A DNA stretch of 44,880 nucleotides from Methanothrix harundinacea (GTDB lineage Archaea; Halobacteriota; Methanosarcinia; Methanotrichales; Methanotrichaceae). The notes beneath the pieces were generated by a model. The model ran no database searches and was not told the origin of the DNA. It saw only the letters and a program-made list of their open reading frames with translations. This document shows positions 7,679 through 41,879 of the stretch, piece by piece. Location of the stretch: the NCBI GenBank assembly GCA_001509375.1, contig LGFT01000006.1, positions 1 to 44,880 on the forward strand. Reading direction: 5' to 3'. Position numbers and translations under genes: made by a program. How positions within the stretch are numbered: the stretch's first letter is position 1; every line of letters starts with the position of its first letter.

Positions 7679-7737
7679 AGGACCACTTGCGACTTACTTA
7701 CGACCTAGGATGTCTGATCCACCACGAAGTGATCCCC

Positions 7738-8889
7738 TTGTTCGAGCTTTTCGTCGCAAAAAAGCACCTTGTCTCCCGAAGGAGGCAAACACTCCTCGTG
7801 GTGGGTGCCGTCGCCCTCGCCGTCGCGATCACCATCCTCTTTCGGTCCCTGATAAACGGCTTTGAGACGACCCTAAACGAGATCATTTTTCAGTTCGTCC
7901 CCCACGTCACAGTCCTCCCGGAGGGGAGCGAAAGCTACATCCACCTTTACAAGACCCTCATCGAGACGATCTGGGAGATTCCCGGCGTTATGGCCGTCTC
8001 CCCGGCCCTCTCGACGACGGCCTCTTTCGCCCACGACGACCACGTCGAGAACGTCGTTCTCCGGGGTGTCGTACCCTACGAGCTGAACATGATTTCGAAG
8101 ATCGGAATCGACTACATGGTGGCCGGCGACCTCGACTCCATCCAGAACGGGAGAAGGGTCGCCCTGGACCAGGGGCTCGCCGACGAGTTGGAGGTGAATC
8201 TGGGGGATACAGTCCAGGTGAGCTTTCCCGACGCCAGGACCATGAGCTTGGTGGTTTCGGGCATCTTCGATACTGGAGGCTTTTCGACGAACTACGCCTA
8301 CGTCTCGATGGAGACGGCGCGGGATTTCCTAGGCGAGGGGAACGTCGTAACCGACGTCCAGATCAAGCTCGAAGACATTTACCAGGCTGACGAGGTGGCA
8401 AGCGAACTTGAGGCGCGCGGGTACAACGCCGAGAGCTGGCAGAGCCAGTCGGGGATCGTGGAGACGATCGAGAGCCGCAGGTTCACCAACACCCTGATCA
8501 TGCTCCTGGTGATCGTGATCGCCTCTTTCGGGATAGCCAACATCATGAACCTCCTCGTCCTCGAGAAGACGAGGGAGATCGGGATGATGATGGCGATGGG
8601 TGCCGCCCCCAAGAGCGTCCGCAAAATCTTCCTCATCGAGTCCGGCATCCTGGGCCTCGCTGGCGGATTGGGGGGCTGCCTCATCGGCTATCTGATCGCA
8701 TCTTACGTCAACAGCCTCGCCATAGCCATCTCCTCGGGCCCCAGCTTCTCGGTGATTTTGACCTTCATCGTCGACCCCTGGGACATCCTCGCCTTCCCCC
8801 TGATAACCCTCCTCTTAAGCGTCGTCGCCGGGGTTTATCCAGCTCATCAGGCCTCGAAGCTGGATCCCGTCATCGCCCTCCGGGGCTGA
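7738..8889 (+). CDS. ABC transporter permease, FtsX/MacB type (paralogue 1)
   Basis: A membrane subunit of a type VII (MacB/LolCDE-like) ABC system. From TTG 7738 it begins LFELFVAKKHLVSRRRQ, then one membrane helix, a large extracytoplasmic domain (about 45-270, with a conserved YIHLYKTLIE segment), and three C-terminal helices. It ends AGVYPAHQASKLDPVIALRG, the family signature. I chose TTG 7738 for two reasons. GTGAT precedes it, and the third paralogue starts at the equivalent residue with ATG (MFELSIAERHI). A start at TTG 7687 would precede the likely transcript start. It is one of three paralogues feeding one ATPase at 11404. Such systems export lipoproteins or peptides or transmit mechanical signals. 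The substrate is unknown. Confidence 0.9.
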   Translation: MFELFVAKKHLVSRRRQTLLVVGAVALAVAITILFRSLINGFETTLNEIIFQFVPHVTVLPEGSESYIHLYKTLIETIWEIPGVMAVSPALSTTASFAHDDHVENVVLRGVVPYELNMISKIGIDYMVAGDLDSIQNGRRVALDQGLADELEVNLGDTVQVSFPDARTMSLVVSGIFDTGGFSTNYAYVSMETARDFLGEGNVVTDVQIKLEDIYQADEVASELEARGYNAESWQSQSGIVETIESRRFTNTLIMLLVIVIASFGIANIMNLLVLEKTREIGMMMAMGAAPKSVRKIFLIESGILGLAGGLGGCLIGYLIASYVNSLAIAISSGPSFSVILTFIVDPWDILAFPLITLLLSVVAGVYPAHQASKLDPVIALRG

Positions 8890-8980: not shown

Positions 8981-9034
8981 CGAAGAACGGTTACTCGCAA
9001 AAAGGACGCTTTAAGATCCCTCAGGAGTGATTCC

Positions 9035-10192
9035 TTGCTCGAGCTGTTCGTCGCGATGAAGCACATAAGGACGAGGAAGAGGCAGACCGCCCTCGCCATG
9101 GGGGCCGTCGGCCTCGCCGTGGCCATCATCATCGTCTTTCGGGCGGTCATGAACGGCAGCATCGAGATCTTTTTCGACCTTATCTTCGAGCTGGCGCCTC
9201 ACGCTCTGGTCCTCCCCAAGGAGGGGGAGGAATACATCTACCTCTACAAGACCCTAATCGAGTTCATCTGGACGATCCCCGGGGTTGCAGCCGTCTCTCC
9301 CACCCTCAGCACCACGGCGACCCTCTCCTTTGAAGACGAAGTCGAGAACGTCGAGTTGACCGGGGGCATACCGTCTGAGATGAACAAGGTGATGAGCCTC
9401 GACAAATACATGATTGTGGGTGATTTCTACGCTATATCGAGTGGGAGGAGGGTCATTCTTGGGGAGGGGGTGATGGAGAAGCTGGACGTGAAAATAGGCG
9501 AGGACGTCGTCGCCAACTTCCCCGACGCTAAGACTATGAACCTGGTGGTTGCGGGCGTTTTCAGGACGGGGATTGAGGAGTGGGACCAGGGTGCCTACGT
9601 CTCCCTGGAGACGACCCAGGAGTTTCTGGGGGAGGGGGATGTAATAAACTACATCAACATCCATCTCGATGACCCCTACCAGGGCGACGCCGTCGCTGAG
9701 GAGATCTCCGCTCGCGGATACGACGCCGACAGCTGGAGGACCCTCTTCCCAGAGTTCGAGGAGACTCTGGCCTTTGAGACCTTCTCCAACAACCTGATCC
9801 TGGCCCTCGTCCTTCTGATCGCCTCCTTCGGGATCGCCAACGTCATGAACATGCTGGTCTTGGAGAAGACGAGGGAGATCGGGATGCTGATGGCCATGGG
9901 TGCAGACGGCCCATCGATCAGGAAGGTATTCGTTATCGAGAGTGGGATTTTGGGGCTCGCTGGCGGCACTGCCGGCAGCCTCTTCGGTTATATAGTCTCC
10001 ACCTACCTCCATAGCCTCCAGTACACCATCACAGCGCCGACTGCACCCCAGCCGATAGTCATCAAGTTCCTCGTCGACCCCTTCGACCTCATCGCCTTCC
10101 CCCTCCTCGCCCTGATTCTGAGCATGATCGCAGGTGTCTACCCGGCCCACAAGGCTTCAAAACTGGATCCAGTGATCGCTCTGCGAGGTTGA
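9035..10192 (+). CDS. ABC transporter permease, FtsX/MacB type (paralogue 2)
   Basis: The same architecture as paralogue 1: one N-terminal helix after LLELFVAMKHIRTRKRQ, a large external domain containing YIYLYKTLIEFIW and FPDAKTMNLVV, and three C-terminal helices ending AGVYPAHKASKLDPVIALRG. It is visibly closest to paralogue 1, including nearly identical C-termini, so the two arose by tandem duplication. The start is taken as TTG 9035 because GGAGTGAT lies 4 bp upstream and it aligns with the other paralogues. The frame is open back to 8891, but that would place 48 unlikely residues before a TATA box at 8968. Paralogue 3 follows after 6 bp. Confidence 0.9.
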   Translation: MLELFVAMKHIRTRKRQTALAMGAVGLAVAIIIVFRAVMNGSIEIFFDLIFELAPHALVLPKEGEEYIYLYKTLIEFIWTIPGVAAVSPTLSTTATLSFEDEVENVELTGGIPSEMNKVMSLDKYMIVGDFYAISSGRRVILGEGVMEKLDVKIGEDVVANFPDAKTMNLVVAGVFRTGIEEWDQGAYVSLETTQEFLGEGDVINYINIHLDDPYQGDAVAEEISARGYDADSWRTLFPEFEETLAFETFSNNLILALVLLIASFGIANVMNMLVLEKTREIGMLMAMGADGPSIRKVFVIESGILGLAGGTAGSLFGYIVSTYLHSLQYTITAPTAPQPIVIKFLVDPFDLIAFPLLALILSMIAGVYPAHKASKLDPVIALRG

Positions 10193-31175: not shown

Positions 31176-32165
31176 TCATCCTCGGGCTATCATCTCTCCG
31201 GGCGCATCTCCGTATGCTGTCGAGTTCTCCTCTGAGCAGAGCTGAGCGACCTCGGCGCCCCCAATATCTTGAAGAAGCAGATTGAGGTTCTCTGAGTAGG
31301 TGGCCACCGTGGGATCGTTTGTGCCGCGACCTGTCACGCCGATCGCCAAGGCCCCCTCGAAACAGGCCTTCGCGCCCGAGAGGTCGCCCATCTCCCAGAG
31401 GACCCAGCCCAGGTTGTTGACGGTCGTGGCCACCATGGGGTGATCGAAGCCAAAGGCCCCCTCACCGATGACAAGAGCCCTCTCGAAGCAGGCCTTTGAG
31501 CCGAGAAGATCACCCATCTCCCAGAGGACCCCGCCGAGGTTGTTGACGTCGGTGGCGACGTTGGGGTGGACGGGCCCATAAGTTCTCTCGTCGATAGCAA
31601 GCGCCCTCTCAAAACACCCCTTCGCCACCTCTAGGTCGCCCATCTCCTGGAGGACCAGGCCCAGGTTGTTGACGTTTATGGCGACGTTGGGGTGGTGTGG
31701 GCCGTAGGCCTGCTCTTCGATGGCAAGGGCCCTCTCAAAACAGCGTTTCGCCTCAGGCAGGTCCCCCATATCCCTGAGAACGAGACCCAGATTGTTGAGG
31801 TAGGTGGCCACCATAGGATGGTCGAGTCCATACGTTCTCTCGCCGATGGCAAGAGCCCTCTCAAAACAGGCTTTGGCCCCCGTCGCATTCCCCGAGTCTC
31901 TCAAGGAGAGGCCCAGATTGTTGACGACGGTGGCGACGTTGGGGTGGTCTGGACCGTATGCCCCCTCGGCGATCTCAAGGGCCCCCTCAAAGCAAATCTC
32001 AGCCCCCTCAAGGTCTCCCGAGGCGTAGAGGGCGAGACCCCTGTTGTTCAGATCGACGGCCTCTGCCGGATCGCCCCCTCCGAATCCCGGATCGGCAGCC
32101 ACATGGAGGGTGAAGGATGCGCAGATTAAACAAATCAGTATGGCTGAAAAGGTTCCCGGTTTCAT
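31176..32165 (-). CDS. Secreted tetratricopeptide-repeat protein (kinesin-light-chain type)
   Basis: An exported protein of about 329 residues. After a signal peptide (ATG 32165; hydrophobic AILICLICASFTLHVAA) it contains at least six 42-residue repeats of the kinesin-light-chain TPR type, each with a variant of CFERALAIGERTYG, an HPNVAT-like segment and VNNLGLVL. Such arrays form a solenoid that binds peptides or proteins. The DNA repeats have an exact 126-bp period. An in-frame TTG at 32174 is the alternative start. Upstream, 32175-32391 is very AT-rich, with a 7-bp inverted pair TATAATA/TATTATA, and probably holds its promoter. Confidence 0.85.
   Translation of the reverse strand: MKPGTFSAILICLICASFTLHVAADPGFGGGDPAEAVDLNNRGLALYASGDLEGAEICFEGALEIAEGAYGPDHPNVATVVNNLGLSLRDSGNATGAKACFERALAIGERTYGLDHPMVATYLNNLGLVLRDMGDLPEAKRCFERALAIEEQAYGPHHPNVAINVNNLGLVLQEMGDLEVAKGCFERALAIDERTYGPVHPNVATDVNNLGGVLWEMGDLLGSKACFERALVIGEGAFGFDHPMVATTVNNLGWVLWEMGDLSGAKACFEGALAIGVTGRGTNDPTVATYSENLNLLLQDIGGAEVAQLCSEENSTAYGDAPGEMIARG
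31290..32050 (-). repeat. 126-bp coding repeats of the TPR gene
   Basis: The landmark AGGTTGTTGA or a close variant occurs at 31411, 31537, 31663, 31789, 31915 and 32041, exactly 126 bp apart each time. The uniform period and high similarity suggest recent unit amplification. Confidence 0.85.
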
Positions 32166-32391
32166 TAAATTCAATTATCTTTTATCCTTAAGAGGGATAA
32201 AATATTTTCGGCGAGGTTCTTTTTATAGCAACAATCTGATGTGACAATAGTCTAAATATAATATAAATATTATAAATATATTTAGTTATCGAAAGATCAA
32301 GACCCGTCCACCATTTGCGCCAAATATTTCATTGTCGCCTCTAATCAATTCGATTGATAGAACAATCCTTACAGCAATTTGGAGGATATGC

Positions 32392-33183: not shown

Positions 33184-33564
33184 CCAATCTCATCGAGGCC
33201 GGTTTAGAAATAATTATCTCCCAGACTCCGCACCCCTGGACGCACCATGCGAAGCGCCCGCCGCAGGCAACATCAGAGGCGCCGCATGCGCCAGGACCAG
33301 GATCGATCTCCTCGTATGTCAAGCTCCTCAAATCGAACTGGCGCTGAAGCTATAAAAAGATCCATAGTTCAGGCCTCAAATCCGCCACCTATTCAGTGCT
33401 GAGATGGAGCCAGGCTCTGGAAATATCCGCTAGATCCGGAGAGGGGCATTTTTATAGAGGCGGGGTGCAGGGATAGAGAAAACCCCGGTCTTTAGGCCGG
33501 GGATGAATCGTACCCCGCCTTAAGCTATGGATTATTAAATACTATAATAGCATAAGTGAGTGTA
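33184..33564. other. Non-coding region left of TnpB
   Basis: About 370 bases with no credible protein gene. From 33449 there is a TATA-like TTTTTATAG, then a strong hairpin at 33483-33502, then an AT-rich stretch containing AAGCTATGGATTAT (33522-33535). These probably form the left end and promoter of the TnpB element. The part 33184-33440 shows nothing recognisable. Confidence 0.55.
33483..33502 (+). repeat. Left-end hairpin of the TnpB element
   Basis: CCCCGG/CCGGGG with loop TCTTTAGG, followed by ATGAAT. The style (GC stem, loop with TTTAG, then a short A/T-rich tail) matches subterminal hairpins of IS200/IS605-type elements. The hairpin lies near the predicted transcript start set by the TATA box at 33449-33457. 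Confidence 0.5.
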
Positions 33565-34695
33565 ATGCTTAAGACCTTCAAATATAGGATCTATCCGACA
33601 AAAGCACAGCGGTCTAAGATGGAACAGACCTTGGAGCTGTGCAGATGGACCTATAACGAGACTTTAGCATATCGAAAAAACACTTTCGAACAAGAAGGCA
33701 AATACATATCTAAGTATGAGACTCACAACTTGCTGCCAGAGTGGAAGAAAAACAAGCCAGAACTAAAGGAGGTATTCTCTCAGACCCTCCAGAACGTCCA
33801 AGAACGGGTAGATCTGGCCTTTAAAGCGTTCTTCCGAAGGGTCAAAGCAGGAGAGACCCCGAGGTATCCCAGGTTCAAGGGGAAAGGATGGTACGATTCG
33901 TTCACCTATCCACAGCTGGGATTCAAACTGCTCTCCGGGAAGCTGCGTCTCTCCAAGATCGGAGATATCAAGATCAAGCTCCACAGACCCATCGAAGGTA
34001 AAATCAAGAGGTTAACCGTTCGGAGATCTTCGACCGAAAAATGGTTTGCCTGCTTCTCAGTAGAGATCAACGATCCTCCGAAGCCTCCCTGGAAAGATGG
34101 ATTGACGGCGGGCATCGATGTGGGGCTGGAGAATTTCGCTACGCTGTCCAACGGAGAGAAGATCGATAACCCCCGGTTCTTCAGATCTGAGGAGAAGGCG
34201 TTGGCCAAAGCTCAAAGACGACTATCCAAATATGAGACGGGAACTCCTGAGAGGAGGAAAGCTCTCAAAGTCGTCCAGCGGACGCATGAGCGGATCGCTA
34301 ACCGGAGATACGATTTTGCTCATCAGGTCAGTCACAACCTGGTCGAAAGGTTCGGGCTGATTGCTTTCGAGGATCTGAGTATCACAAACATGCTCAAGAA
34401 TCACTGCCTGGCTAAAAGCATATTAGACGCTGCCTGGAGATTGCTAATAATAACCACATTGTACAAGGCTGAGAGCGCCGGTTCGATGGCGGTTCTAGTA
34501 GATCTCAGGAACACAAGTCAGCTATGTTCCAGGTGCGGTCTTAAAGTCACGAAGTCGCTATCGGAGCGGGGCCATGAATGTCCTCGATGCGGGCTAGTCA
34601 TGGACCGTGACGAGAATGCTGCGATAAACATTTTGAGACTGGGACTACAGTCTCTGCCAAAAGCTAGAAGCTTCGCCCTTCAGGGCGGGGAGTAG
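33565..34695 (+). CDS. tnpB: TnpB, RNA-guided nuclease of an IS200/IS605-type element
   Basis: A 376-residue TnpB (OrfB), the transposon-encoded ancestor of Cas12 that cuts DNA guided by an RNA from the element's right end. Catalytic RuvC residues are all present: Asp185 in GIDVGLENFAT, Glu269 in FEDLSI and Asp349 in DRDENAAINIL. The zinc finger CSRCG/CPRCG (Cys321, 324, 339, 342) is intact. The N-terminus (LKTFKYRIYPTKAQ) is canonical. No TnpA transposase gene is in the window, so this copy could move only with help from elsewhere. ATG 33565 or GTG 33556 may be the start. Hairpins flank both sides. Confidence 0.94.
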   Translation: MLKTFKYRIYPTKAQRSKMEQTLELCRWTYNETLAYRKNTFEQEGKYISKYETHNLLPEWKKNKPELKEVFSQTLQNVQERVDLAFKAFFRRVKAGETPRYPRFKGKGWYDSFTYPQLGFKLLSGKLRLSKIGDIKIKLHRPIEGKIKRLTVRRSSTEKWFACFSVEINDPPKPPWKDGLTAGIDVGLENFATLSNGEKIDNPRFFRSEEKALAKAQRRLSKYETGTPERRKALKVVQRTHERIANRRYDFAHQVSHNLVERFGLIAFEDLSITNMLKNHCLAKSILDAAWRLLIITTLYKAESAGSMAVLVDLRNTSQLCSRCGLKVTKSLSERGHECPRCGLVMDRDENAAINILRLGLQSLPKARSFALQGGE

Positions 34696-35049: not shown

Positions 35050-36963
35050 ATGAAAGAAGGCTCTTATGGTTTGGACTATGAGCGGGAGAGGGAGATCTGG
35101 CCCGAGAAGTTCGCGAGCCTTCCCGCCATATTCAGGAATATCCACCCGGGCGATCGGATATTCATAGGAACAGGCTGCGGCGAGCCCCAGCACCTCCTCA
35201 GGTCTCTGGTGGAGTACGTAAAGAACAACCCCAAGGCCTTCTTCGAGGCAGAGGTAATCCACGTCTGGAGTCTGGGGGTGGCTCCCTACGCCGACGAGAA
35301 GCTAGCGGAAAACTTCAGGCTCGACTCTTTCTTCATCGGCGACAGCACCAGGGACGCCGTCAACCGGGGGGCCGCTGACTACACCCCTATCTTTCTCTCC
35401 CAGGTCCCAGACCTCTTCCGCCGGGAGATCACCCCCATCGACGTAGCCCTCGTCCAGACCTCGCCCCCCGACGAACACGGGTACATGAGTTTGGGGGTAA
35501 GTGTCGACATAGTCAAGGCGGCCCTGGAGATGGCGCCCCTGGTCATCGCCCAGGTGAACCGGTTCATGCCGAGGATCCACGGCGACGGCTTCATCAACGT
35601 CGAGGATGTGGACTATCTGGTTCCCCAGGACGAGCCGCTCCTGGAGTACCGGCCCGCAGTCGTTTCCGACACCGCCGCGAGGATCGCCTCCTACGTCGCC
35701 AGGATCATCGAGGACGGCTCGACGGTCCAGGTGGGGTACGGCTACGCCCCCAACGCCCTCCTCTCCCACCTCCAGAAGAAGAGGCACCTGGGGGTTCACA
35801 CCGAGCTTCTCACCGACGGGATCGTAGAATTGATGAAGTTGGGGGTCGTGGACAACAGTCAGAAGACGATCGACCGGGGAAAGACCGTCGCGGCATTCTG
35901 CATGGGGCGGGCCGAGACCTACGAGTACCTCGACGATAACCCCTCGGTGGAGTTCAAGACCATCGACTACACCAATAACCCCCTGATCATATCGAAGATC
36001 AAGAGGATGACCGCCATCAACAGCGCCATGGAGATCGACCTCACCGGCCAGGCGACGGCCGAATCTTTGGGCAGCACCTTCTATAGCGGGATCGGGGGGC
36101 AGGCGGACTTCATGCGGGGAGCCCTCCTCGCCCCCGGCGGAAAGTCGATCCTCGCCCTCCCCTCCACCGCCCTCGGCGGCAAGGTCTCAAGAATCGTCCC
36201 CGCCCTCCTCCCCGGATCGGGGGTGACTCTGACGAGGGGAGACGTCCAGTACGTGGTGACGGAGCGGGGGATCGCCTACCTCCAGGGCAAAAACATCCGG
36301 GAGCGGGCGATGGACCTGATATCCATCGCCCACCCGGACTTTCAGCCCTGGCTGATCGAGGAGGCGAAGAGGCTGAATTTGATCTACCCCGACCAGCCCT
36401 TCGTCCCCGGCAAGGGCGGCGAGTACCCCGAGAGCCTTGCGATCCATCGAACGACCCGTTCCGGCCAGGGGCAGGAGATTCTCCTCCGCCCCGTCAAGAT
36501 CAGCGACGAGCCCCTGATCAAGGATTTCTTCTACAGCCTCTCCGACGAGAGCCTCTACAGGAGGTTCATCTCGGCGAGGATGAACGTCCCCCGGGAGATG
36601 AGGCAGGAGTTCGTCGCCGTCGACTACTCCCGGGACATGGTGATCCTCGCCATCGTCGAGGATAAGGACGAGCCGGAGCAGGAGACGGTCGTGGGCGTCG
36701 GCCAGTACAGCCTCAATTCGGATATGCACACCGCCGAGGTCGCTTTAGTGGTCCGGGACGACTTCCAGGGTAAGGGAATCGGCACCGAGCTCCTCCACTA
36801 CCTCACCTACCTCGCCAAGAGGCAGGGGCTTCTCGGCTTTTCCGCCGAGGTCCTCGTCACCAACCGGCCGATGATGGCCCTCTTCGAGGGGATGGGCTTT
36901 GAGATCGAGAAGAGGAGCGAGGAGGGGGTCTTCGAGATGAGGATGACGTTCGGGGAGGTGTGA
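35050..36963 (+). CDS. Acetyl-CoA hydrolase/transferase fused to a GNAT acetyltransferase domain
   Basis: A 637-residue two-domain protein. Residues about 15-460 are an acetyl-CoA hydrolase/4-hydroxybutyrate CoA-transferase. The likely nucleophile is Glu252 in LGVHTELLTDG, which forms a CoA thioester intermediate. Glycine-rich segments such as FYSGIGGQADFMRGA also fit. Residues about 480-637 are a GNAT domain with the acetyl-CoA loop FQGKGIGTELLHYL. The fusion recalls protein acetyltransferases joined to acyl-CoA synthetases, so the tail may acetylate and control a CoA enzyme. That is relevant to an acetate-using methanogen but unproven. GGTGAT lies 6 bases before ATG 35050. Two broken copies of the GNAT part occur downstream. 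Confidence 0.9.
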   Translation: MKEGSYGLDYEREREIWPEKFASLPAIFRNIHPGDRIFIGTGCGEPQHLLRSLVEYVKNNPKAFFEAEVIHVWSLGVAPYADEKLAENFRLDSFFIGDSTRDAVNRGAADYTPIFLSQVPDLFRREITPIDVALVQTSPPDEHGYMSLGVSVDIVKAALEMAPLVIAQVNRFMPRIHGDGFINVEDVDYLVPQDEPLLEYRPAVVSDTAARIASYVARIIEDGSTVQVGYGYAPNALLSHLQKKRHLGVHTELLTDGIVELMKLGVVDNSQKTIDRGKTVAAFCMGRAETYEYLDDNPSVEFKTIDYTNNPLIISKIKRMTAINSAMEIDLTGQATAESLGSTFYSGIGGQADFMRGALLAPGGKSILALPSTALGGKVSRIVPALLPGSGVTLTRGDVQYVVTERGIAYLQGKNIRERAMDLISIAHPDFQPWLIEEAKRLNLIYPDQPFVPGKGGEYPESLAIHRTTRSGQGQEILLRPVKISDEPLIKDFFYSLSDESLYRRFISARMNVPREMRQEFVAVDYSRDMVILAIVEDKDEPEQETVVGVGQYSLNSDMHTAEVALVVRDDFQGKGIGTELLHYLTYLAKRQGLLGFSAEVLVTNRPMMALFEGMGFEIEKRSEEGVFEMRMTFGEV

Positions 36964-36971
36964 GGAATTTT

Positions 36972-37082
36972 ATGGAGCTTCGCCAAAAGCAGGGACTCCT
37001 CGGCTTCACCGTCGAGGTCTTCTCCAGCAATCAGCCGATGCGGAGGCTCTTCGCGGCTCAATGGCAGAGGCTGGCTCAATAA
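36972..37082 (+). pseudogene. Fragment of a GNAT domain (diverged copy)
   Basis: Translates as MELRQKQGLLGFTVEVFSSN followed by QPMRRLF and a stop. This matches the part of the upstream GNAT domain reading RQGLLGFSAEVLVTNRPMMALF. It starts nine bases after the stop of the intact gene. It lacks the acetyl-CoA loop and is too short to work. Confidence 0.7.
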
Positions 37083-39310: not shown

Positions 39311-39515
39311 GGCGCTGATCATCGTCGTGCACCTTGATGAGCGGGATCTCTCGGCCCTGTAAATCGTCGACCGCATTAAGGATGTTGGCGCAGAGGCCGC
39401 CCGCCAAGTCTGGCGTAAACCTCTTCTCGCCCCGCAACGTAAAAAGTCGATTGCCCGCCTCTCCAACTTCGGCAAATCAGATCGGTGGGCTGGCTGATTG
39501 AAGGGGAGATCCACG

Positions 39516-39812
39516 ATGAAACGCGAAAGATGCACCCGACTGGAAGATATCCCCAACGTTGGACCCTCTATAGCTGAGGATCTGCGCCTGGTGGGGGTCT
39601 CTCATCCCCGGGATCTGATAGGGCGAGATCCCTACGAGATGTATGAGGAGCTGTGCTGCAAAAAAGGGGAGCGTCAGGACCCCTGCGTCATCGACGTCTT
39701 CATCTCCGCGGTCAGATTCATGGAAGGCGAGCCCAAGCGCCCCTGGTGGGCTTATACCTCGGAGCGGAAGCAGAGGCTTGCCGGTGGGGATGCATCCGGC
39801 GAGACCAAATAG
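39516..39812 (+). CDS. Helix-hairpin-helix protein of the Cdd1 (pathogenicity locus) family
   Basis: A 98-residue protein resembling the Cdd1 family, which binds DNA or resembles the TfoX C-terminus. Key blocks are LEDIPNVGPSIAEDLRLVGV (helix-hairpin-helix), a DPYEMYEEL segment, and DPCVIDVFISAVRFMEG. The tail is basic and poorly conserved. ATG 39516 is preferred because GGGGAGA stands upstream. A TTG at 39498 is in frame. The function is unknown. It faces away from the iron-sulfur gene. Confidence 0.85.
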   Translation: MKRERCTRLEDIPNVGPSIAEDLRLVGVSHPRDLIGRDPYEMYEELCCKKGERQDPCVIDVFISAVRFMEGEPKRPWWAYTSERKQRLAGGDASGETK

Positions 39813-39886: not shown

Positions 39887-40006
39887 ATACATCCGGTCCA
39901 TATTACTTCCGCCGCATGCTGTCAATAAATATATCTCCTTAGGTATCATTACAGATGTCAGGAGAAAGGGCTATTACCAAGTGCTAGCTGAGGTGGAGGA
40001 ACTTGC

Positions 40007-40843
40007 ATGTTTGAGATCCCGGAATATGTTACCCTGGCTCGCCAGATGGCTGAAAGCCTTTCAGGCAAGCGCATCGCCGAAGGAACTTTAGGCAACTCTC
40101 CACATAAGTTCGTCTGGTACAATCGAGAACCGGCTGAGTTTGCCGCCATTGTCAAAGGAAAAACCATAGGAGAGGCCTATTGCAGGGGAAGATGGCTGTT
40201 CATCCCCCTCCAGCCAGGCTACGTGCTCGTATTTGGAGAGTGCGGCGGCAAGATTATCCTTCACGAGTCGGAATCACAACTGCCAAAGAAGTACCATCTA
40301 TCACTTCATTTCGAGGATGGCAGCTTTCTCTCAGCAACCACCCAAATGTGGGGCGCCATGGAACTCTATGAGAAAGGGGATGAACTGGAACGGCAATACA
40401 TCAAAGGCATGCGGACCGCTCCAGTTGATCCAGAGTTCAGTCTCGAATACCTGTCAGCTCTCATCGAGGAATGTACAAACAAAAAAAGTAGATCTGTAAA
40501 AGGGCTGCTCACCCAGGATCAGCTGATACCCGGACTGGGAAACTCGATCGCTCAGGATATCATGTTCAAGGCGAAGCTCCATCCAAAGCAGCCCATAGCA
40601 AACTTGAGCAAGGCTCAAATCAAGAATTTACATCAAGCCATTGTAGAGACTGTGGCCGAAGTGATCCGGCAGGGCGGCAGAAATGACGAGACAGATCTAT
40701 ACGGGAATAAAGGCAAGTACAAGCGCATAATGGACAAAGACGCTGCAGGACGGCCCTGTCCTGAGTGTGGAACCAAGGTTCTTAAGATGAACTACTTGGG
40801 GGGAGCCTGCTATTATTGTCCAAAATGTCAGAGCATGGAGTGA
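40007..40843 (+). CDS. Fpg/Nei-family DNA glycosylase homologue lacking the N-terminal proline
   Basis: Homologous to formamidopyrimidine-DNA glycosylase/endonuclease VIII (278 residues), which excises oxidised bases. The H2TH region (QLIPGLGNSIAQDIMFKAKL, about 168-187) and a four-cysteine zinc finger (CPECG and YYCPKC) are intact. Two catalytic features differ. The protein starts MFEIPEYV, so the Schiff-base proline at position 2 is Phe, while Glu3 remains. The zinc-finger hairpin reads GGACYYCP without the usual arginine. It may be inactive, bind DNA only, or use another nucleophile. GGAGG a few bases upstream supports ATG 40007. The gene is less GC-rich than its neighbours and abuts a GNAT fragment. 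Confidence 0.85.
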   Translation: MFEIPEYVTLARQMAESLSGKRIAEGTLGNSPHKFVWYNREPAEFAAIVKGKTIGEAYCRGRWLFIPLQPGYVLVFGECGGKIILHESESQLPKKYHLSLHFEDGSFLSATTQMWGAMELYEKGDELERQYIKGMRTAPVDPEFSLEYLSALIEECTNKKSRSVKGLLTQDQLIPGLGNSIAQDIMFKAKLHPKQPIANLSKAQIKNLHQAIVETVAEVIRQGGRNDETDLYGNKGKYKRIMDKDAAGRPCPECGTKVLKMNYLGGACYYCPKCQSME

Positions 40844-40850
40844 GAGAGGA

Positions 40851-40952
40851 AAGGGGATCGGCTCAGAGCTTCTCCACTACCTCACCTACCTCGCCAAACG
40901 GCAGGGGCTCCTCGGCTTCACCGCCGAGGTCCTCTCCAACATCTCCCGATAG
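40851..40952 (+). pseudogene. Second fragment of the GNAT domain (close copy)
   Basis: Reads KGIGSELLHYLTYLAKRQGL then LGFTAEVLSNISR and a stop, nearly identical to the acetyl-CoA loop region of the intact gene at 36769-36870. It starts 7 bp after the Fpg-like stop and has no start codon. Confidence 0.8.
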
Positions 40953-41012: not shown

Positions 41013-41879
41013 TCAGCCCTTTATCGGCACCTGTATCTCCGTCATCAGCTCCTCGGGCGGCACCTTTGATGGGTCGTTCAGATAAAGCTCCCTGACGGGA
41101 CCAGCTATCTCGATGCAGCTCTTCATAATATGCTTGAAGATATCCCGGTAGGTCATATACAGCGTATCATAGCTCCCCTTGTGCACCACAGACAGCACCT
41201 TTGTCTCAGCTAGGCTTTTCAGCTCCATCTTCGGGTCGCCCACCTCCAGCTTGCCCACTACTGGCACTGCCACCTCGATCTCCGCCTCTTTCTCCGCCCA
41301 GCAATCCAACTCGTCCGGGCTGCCCTCGGCGCAGTTCTCATCATGATAGATTGTCATCAAAGGGCCGGTCATCTTCACCTGATTCCTCTGGTTCTTAGGG
41401 GCAAAGACCACTGCCATCAGGTCGCCAATTGTCTTTTCTATAGTTGCACTGAGCGGACCTCTATCCCTTCTGCTCAAAACCCGTATAGCGGGTACCTCTT
41501 TTATTGTCGGGTCAATCAGGGCCATCTTCATCATCTCCTTGCCTTTCTGTTTGAGCAATGCCTCGGTCCTCTGCAGCCTGGCGATCTCGCTCTGAGTTTT
41601 TGAGAGCTGCTCTTCGAGCAGCGCCTCAACGGCTGTGCCGTCTCCTTTAGCCTCGGCCTCCAGGAAGCTCGCTATATCTTCGAGGCTAAAGCCCAGATTG
41701 CAGAGCGTCTTGATCCGGACACCTCGATCCAGCTGGTCTGCAGTGTAGTAGCGGTAGCCCGTCATGGGGTCCTTTGCCTCCGGCACGAGCAGACCCTTCT
41801 GGTCATAGTATCTCAGCGCCTTGGGCGAGAGCCTCGTGATAAACGAGAACCTGCTGATGGGAATCTGGTCGGCGGTCAT
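41013..41879 (-). CDS. MerR-family regulator with GyrI-like effector-binding domain
   Basis: A 288-residue transcription factor. The N-terminal MerR winged helix (about 6-75) reads ISRFSFITRLSPKALRYYDQ, then GYRYYTADQL and LGFSLEDIASFL. A coiled-coil dimer helix follows (about 80-118). The C-terminal half (about 125-288) is a GyrI/BmrR-like effector pocket, including VLSVVHKGSYDTLYMTYRDI. This layout is typical of multidrug-responsive activators. No cysteine metal site of MerR/CueR is seen in the linker. The target may be the divergent CMD fragment region, but nothing intact is encoded there. The family is commoner in bacteria, suggesting transfer. Confidence 0.92.
   Translation of the reverse strand: MTADQIPISRFSFITRLSPKALRYYDQKGLLVPEAKDPMTGYRYYTADQLDRGVRIKTLCNLGFSLEDIASFLEAEAKGDGTAVEALLEEQLSKTQSEIARLQRTEALLKQKGKEMMKMALIDPTIKEVPAIRVLSRRDRGPLSATIEKTIGDLMAVVFAPKNQRNQVKMTGPLMTIYHDENCAEGSPDELDCWAEKEAEIEVAVPVVGKLEVGDPKMELKSLAETKVLSVVHKGSYDTLYMTYRDIFKHIMKSCIEIAGPVRELYLNDPSKVPPEELMTEIQVPIKG

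Follow-up and report, generated by a model that had tools for sequence, protein, structure and literature searches.

An N-terminal proline is treated as a signature of the Fpg/Nei superfamily, and proteins of this fold are labelled accordingly: a homologue of the protein described here is called formamidopyrimidine glycosylase family by fold alone. What, then, is the function of a protein that has the fold and carries phenylalanine in place of the proline? Such a protein of 278 amino acids is encoded at 40007-40843 on the forward strand of the window, which is the whole 44,880-nt stretch of Methanothrix harundinacea DNA that was analysed. The original prediction was that the fold is kept and the chemistry lost or changed, leaving a damage-binding protein or a different lyase mechanism. 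Based on comparison with its relatives, the underlying observation is real and broader than stated, as it applies to a whole clade.

An intact reading frame and a complete Fpg fold

The frame and coordinates of the gene are exact by translation, and the N-terminus reads MFEIPEYVTLARQM. The ATG at 40007 is preceded by a Shine-Dalgarno region (GGTGGAGGAACTTGC, 39992-40006, forward strand) with a GGAGG box 7 nt 5′ of the start codon. Upstream of this ATG there are just five in-frame codons and then a stop, so that no longer, proline-bearing N-terminus is possible. The same start is used by the relatives: a Shine-Dalgarno match of at least 4 nt is found at 72 of their 75 starts (63 ATG, 8 GTG and 4 TTG) compared to 21% of control windows. 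The upstream stop, the Shine-Dalgarno region at the ATG and these 72 supported starts together rule out a mis-annotated start.

Pfam matches over the cut-off are found for both domains, Fapy_DNA_glyco (PF01149, 8.8e-11) and H2TH (PF06831, 9e-15); zf-FPG_IleRS gives no score on the protein. An AlphaFold2 model built with 56 aligned relatives has a pLDDT of 94.6 and shows a full Fpg fold, including a beta hairpin at residues 259-270, as expected for the finger hairpin of the superfamily. The top Foldseek matches are MutM-DNA complexes, with a TM of 0.88 and 28% identity to 1r2y (Bacillus stearothermophilus MutM, hereafter Bst). These results bear out the predicted retention of the fold. The score against the fpg equivalog is nevertheless below threshold (TIGR00577, 135 bits vs a cut-off of 203.3), and the Nei and Nei2 equivalogs are not reached (NF007763, 62.6 vs 252; NF040775, 35.8 vs 400). 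Judged by these profiles, the protein, which we call the MFE protein, is a member of the superfamily and not a recognised Fpg.

Lesion-reading residues are rewritten around a conserved core

We defined invariance on 72 full-length relatives with at least 50% identity, drawn from many bacterial phyla. All features below are on the forward strand. In the N-terminal M1-F2-E3-I4-P5-E6 (40007-40024), Phe in place of the Pro2 nucleophile is found in 72/72, as are both Glu3 and Glu6. The same is true of Lys165, of the H2TH Asn179 (40541-40543; Bst N174) and of the four cysteines of the C4 zinc finger (C251, C254, C271 and C274; 40757-40831), within which YLGG replaces the hairpin Arg and Gly266, at the position of Bst R264, is again invariant. 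Lys260 is present in 68/72. Thus, the replacement of Pro2 by Phe, the absence of the zinc-finger Arg and the presence of Glu3, H2TH and zinc finger were all correctly read from this one gene.

The comparison with Bst MutM also indicates that the extent of the change was understated. The MFE protein shares with Fpg/MutM the fold, H2TH and C4 zinc finger and has equivalents of Glu3, Glu6, Asn174, Lys160 and, in 68/72, K258. In contrast, H74 is replaced by Gly, R76 by Glu, M77 by Cys (Cys79), E78 by Gly and Y176 by Ile. Lys60 of Fpg (Lys52 of Nei) corresponds to Arg62 (40190-40192), a position that is Arg in 57/72 and Lys in 15/72 MFE proteins and Ala, Met or Gly in MIE proteins, the second Pro2-less branch described below. 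The opposite-base wedge R112-K113-F114 of Fpg is replaced by Q113-M114-W115 (40343-40351; 66/72, 71/72 and 72/72, respectively), so that R112 becomes Gln and F114 becomes Trp.

Two further segments differ from Fpg. A new PH(K/R)FxWYN insert, S31-PHKFVWY-N39 (40097-40123), is clade-specific; its P32 and H33 are found in 72/72 MFE and 4/4 MIE proteins, and the alignment has a gap there in Pro2-bearing relatives and in Fpg. The lesion-recognition loop is rewritten as G224-R225-x-D227-E228-x-D230-L231 to R240 (40676-40726), with G224, R225, D227, E228, G236 and R240 invariant in A1; R225 is new in the clade, D227 is MFE-specific and E228 is common to the Pro2-bearing sister. Since R112/F114 are among the opposite-base contacts of Fpg and its recognition loop is G218-G233 (PMC3188539), these changes suggest that lesion reading has been rebuilt, beyond the loss of the nucleophile. 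The median net charge is also lower, +2 here compared to +6 in Fpg.

A Pro2-less clade with a single origin

The MFE and MIE branches are monophyletic (100/100) in two trees, one of which was built after removal of the trait-bearing ends (residues 1-6 and the zinc-finger terminus). The stem of the group corresponds to 1.75 and 1.25 changes per column, and position 2 is Phe in 72, Ile in 3 and Leu in 1 of its sequences. We define this group as the MxE clade, an ancient, selected, Pro2-less Fpg/Nei-fold group. Its traits are F/I/L2, Gly at the zinc-finger Arg, the PHxF insert and R225, and the protein encoded at 40007-40843 has all of them. Within the literature searched, which covers few subscription journals, we found no paper on a proline-lacking Fpg/Nei clade. 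The MxE clade could overlap with an NCBI CDD subgroup that comprises bacterial FpgNei N-domains, so far uncharacterised. The existence of a large, conserved Pro-less branch makes the fold-based label unsafe as a claim of function.

The MIE/MLE form is found in Parabacteroides (WP_128577557.1) and in human-gut contigs at 35-40% identity, and a spirochaete carries another copy of this type. These proteins resemble the MFE form in the lack of Pro2, the Gly at the zinc-finger Arg, the PH(K/R)F insert and the GGRxxExDL loop, and differ from it in Ile/Leu2, YG instead of WG and the loss of the Lys60 equivalent. MLE/MIE copies are also present in two records named "Bacteriophage", which are gut scaffolds without annotation and may be bacterial. 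No relative was found in the viral contigs scanned and a viral origin is rejected.

The nearest Pro2-bearing relatives (30-40% identity) start with MPELPEIYNLA (L126, L152-L154) and occur in some Chloroflexota and in three genomes of one archaeal family of the host's phylum. They share with the MFE protein the GGxxxExDLxG loop, Gln-Asp in the H2TH helix and the absence of the zinc-finger Arg, which is Thr. In contrast to the MFE protein, they keep Pro2 and Lys60, have FWWFG instead of QMWG and lack the PHxF insert. They form another subfamily, which is apparently uncharacterised. Examples with the Thr and the FWWFG wedge are located at 365-1174 in L126, 1498-2307 in L152 and 1495-2304 in L154; L126 and L152 score below the Fpg and Nei equivalog cut-offs. 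Because these Pro2-bearing, Arg-less relatives neighbour the MxE clade, the zinc-finger Arg was likely lost first and Pro2 later, in what would most parsimoniously be a single event. The clade and its neighbours thereby offer a likely order of loss.

In the genome collection we found 78 loci, distributed over Chloroflexota (Anaerolineae and Dehalococcoidia), WOR-3, Spirochaetota, Cloacimonadota, Gemmatimonadota, Fibrobacterota, KSB1 and Caldisericia, plus two archaeal relatives. The two nearest relatives are from the records Methanosarcinales archaeon Methan_01 and Methanosaeta sp. PtaU1.Bin060. The three archaeal MFE sequences are nested in a Dehalococcoidia group (100/100). In addition, the GC3 of the MFE gene is 0.56 compared to 0.83-0.88 in two nearby genes, and the gene occurs patchily, in the window's genome, in one of the eight other genomes of the genus and in one genome from a different genus in the family. 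Based on this nesting, low GC3 and patchy occurrence, the host probably gained the gene laterally from Dehalococcoidia-like bacteria.

The dN/dS ratios against close relatives are 0.16, 0.11 and 0.07 (NG86; dS is near saturation for the 0.07 value), which indicates conservation far beyond chance. As judged from these ratios, the gene is under purifying selection and is not a decaying copy. Together with the residue invariance, they rule out a pseudogene or a single mutation.

A PF01149 scan of 16 host genomes found a canonical Fpg alongside the MFE form in 8 of them, and some of the 16, the window's genome included, have MFE-type copies only. Replacement of the canonical Fpg is therefore not general, and in the 8 genomes with both, the coexistence argues for an extra function instead of a spare copy. 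The window's genome also encodes an Nfo AP endonuclease; Xth gave no match there. When the neighbours were clustered in about 80 loci, we found no operon partner conserved across phyla, just local, lineage-bound genes and common ABC ATPases.

Base removal may be independent of the proline

In mycobacterial Nei2, the P2A mutant has an AP incision of 3.3% compared to 93.8% for the wild type, releases the 5-hydroxyuracil base at wild-type level and gives full rescue in vivo (PMC11323726). The E3A mutant keeps the lyase and loses both base release and rescue, and P2C rescues with no base release (PMC11323726). In E. coli Fpg, R108Q and R258A have 0.3% and 0.4% of the oxoG activity, respectively (PMC4737139).

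Together with the alignment and the tree, the Nei2 P2 and Fpg R108Q/R258A mutants suggest that the AP lyase and oxoG excision, and with them the classical proline Schiff-base chemistry, are very probably lost in the MFE protein, and to this extent the original prediction stands. It left out of account that the Nei2 glycosylase needs Glu3 and not Pro2 (PMC11323726), so that a loss of Pro2 need not by itself entail a loss of base removal. Nei2 is thus a precedent for Pro2-independent, Glu3-dependent base release and repair in vivo. Unlike the MFE protein, Nei2 is itself a lyase with Pro2 and Lys51, and it is distant in sequence (the NF040775 score above).

We therefore favour a lyase-dead protein that acts on a lesion other than oxoG, most likely as a monofunctional glycosylase, with a damage binder close behind. 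Our best explanation, which we hold tentatively and at somewhat less than even confidence, is that the MxE clade dispenses with the proline AP lyase and the reading of 8-oxoguanine, and that Glu3 drives the removal of another base lesion. The protein would grip damaged DNA via H2TH and the zinc finger, and its pocket would admit a lesion that is not 8-oxoG:C. Glu3 would then donate a proton to O4′ of the sugar, water would serve as the nucleophile, and the AP site would be left for a separate AP endonuclease, such as the Nfo-type enzyme of the host.

Several results are in line with a Glu3-driven glycosylase. The invariant Glu3, Glu6, Asn179 and Lys165 and the nearly invariant Lys260 stand beside an equally invariant Phe2 and Gly266, and the changes of R112 to Gln and R264 to Gly match or resemble E. 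coli R108Q and R258A (PMC4737139). The single origin, the low dN/dS, the TM to MutM, the presence of Nfo and the coexistence with Fpg point the same way. On the other side, Glu3 and Glu6 lie at the N-cap and N3 of the first helix, which in the model begins with residue 4, so they could be conserved for helix capping and not for chemistry. The Lys60/Lys51 equivalent, which is needed for both Nei2 activities, is absent in MIE and mostly Arg in MFE. The lower net charge, the lack of a conserved gene neighbour indicating a pathway and the glycosylase-dead Nei2 P2C, which shows that substitutions of residue 2 are not all as well tolerated as Ala, also argue against it.

With more hesitation, this explanation can be extended to the whole branch, which would then comprise widespread proline-independent, monofunctional, Glu3-driven glycosylases whose re-tooled pocket (PHxF, GGRxDExDL) accommodates a lesion of anaerobes. 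If this is true, the superfamily is able to do without the Schiff-base chemistry that is its hallmark. In either case, the MxE clade provides naturally occurring variants with which to ask where in base excision the proline is truly needed.

It is possible, if somewhat unlikely, that the protein is a non-catalytic binder of damage or AP sites, as the original prediction also suggested, which would hold on to lesions, fork or AP DNA in order to shield or mark them and would break no bond. Consistent with this, the nucleophile and the zinc-finger Arg are lost, in MIE the active-site Lys as well, and Lys165, Asn179 and Lys260 are kept. The strict N-terminus could be steric, since any extra residues there would occupy the lesion pocket. 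E3 and E6 can act as a helix-capping box, and a non-catalytic role has been cited for NEIL3 (PMC11323726). However, Glu3 is invariant over 76 sequences while the nearby Pro5 drifts to Ser or Ala, and the newly invariant polar residues (H33 and R225, plus D227 in MFE) fit a re-tooled and not a relaxed site.

Retention of a lyase would require another nucleophile. Among the columns that are conserved in both Pro2-less branches and absent from the Pro2-bearing relatives, none is Lys or Cys. A compensating Lys or Cys is rejected on this basis, and the proposed lyase mechanism through such a residue finds no sequence support. Methionine aminopeptidase removes Met before small residues only (PMC1266368), so that with F/I/L at position 2, Met1 should stay in place and leave no Pro-like amine exposed. 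The sole amine left at the nucleophile site would then be the alpha-amine of Met1. We consider it improbable that this amine forms the Schiff base one residue further out and keeps the lyase. In favour of this, position 2 of the clade has Met-retaining residues only, the Met-Phe start is fixed in all relatives from many phyla and backed by the Shine-Dalgarno matches, and NEIL3, a family member with Val2 in place of Pro2, demonstrates that a primary N-terminal amine can serve (PMC11323726). Yet active NEIL3 requires Met1 removal to expose its Val2, whereas Phe2 should stay unexposed. Moreover, Nei2 P2A and P2C, in which the new N-terminal amine would be primary once Met is cleaved off, have hardly any lyase activity left (PMC11323726), and the lyase Lys is altered as described above.

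Repurposing outside base excision repair, for RNA, structured DNA or regulation, appears quite improbable. The lower positive charge, the rewritten loop, the mostly absent conserved repair neighbours and the MerR/GyrI regulator downstream on the opposite strand would suit such a role, but Fpg N-terminal and H2TH matches are still obtained for the two domains, lesion complexes of Fpg come closest in fold, and Glu3, Glu6 and Asn179 persist in the pocket. Finally, it is scarcely credible that an ordinary active Fpg is masked by a misassigned start, by processing of the N-terminus or by a mutation in this one gene: a homologue's generic label "DNA-formamidopyrimidine glycosylase family protein" is all we found for it, against the five open upstream codons, the Shine-Dalgarno region at the ATG, the invariant Phe2, the TIGR00577 score and the lack of methionine aminopeptidase cleavage before Phe (PMC1266368).

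Genes and repeats in the surrounding DNA

The gene upstream of the MFE gene (39498-39812) encodes a Cdd1 (pathogenicity locus) protein (Pfam, 5.4e-35), and the corresponding DNA precedes the MFE gene in the relative L083 as well (82% identity). Downstream, on the opposite strand, 41013-41879 encodes a MerR regulator with a GyrI-like effector domain, which is likewise downstream in L083 (94% DNA identity).

Just 3′ of the MFE stop codon, 40848-40950 contains stretches of 87 and 61 nt that are 85-89% identical to 36769-36855, the end of an acetyl-CoA hydrolase/GNAT fusion gene, and to 36980-37039, just beyond that gene. By this identity, they are the remnant of a second copy of the acetyl-CoA hydrolase/GNAT region. 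About 2.4 kb of other genes occupy this place in L083.

Elsewhere in the window, the neighbouring stretches 7728-8889 and 9026-10192 are 67% identical in DNA and are probably tandem paralogues. An open reading frame at 33556-34695 resembles IS605-type OrfB/TnpB with a C4 zinc ribbon, as recognised by eye only, and another at 31176-32174 contains TPR-like tandem units of 126 nt that are mutually about 70-73% identical.
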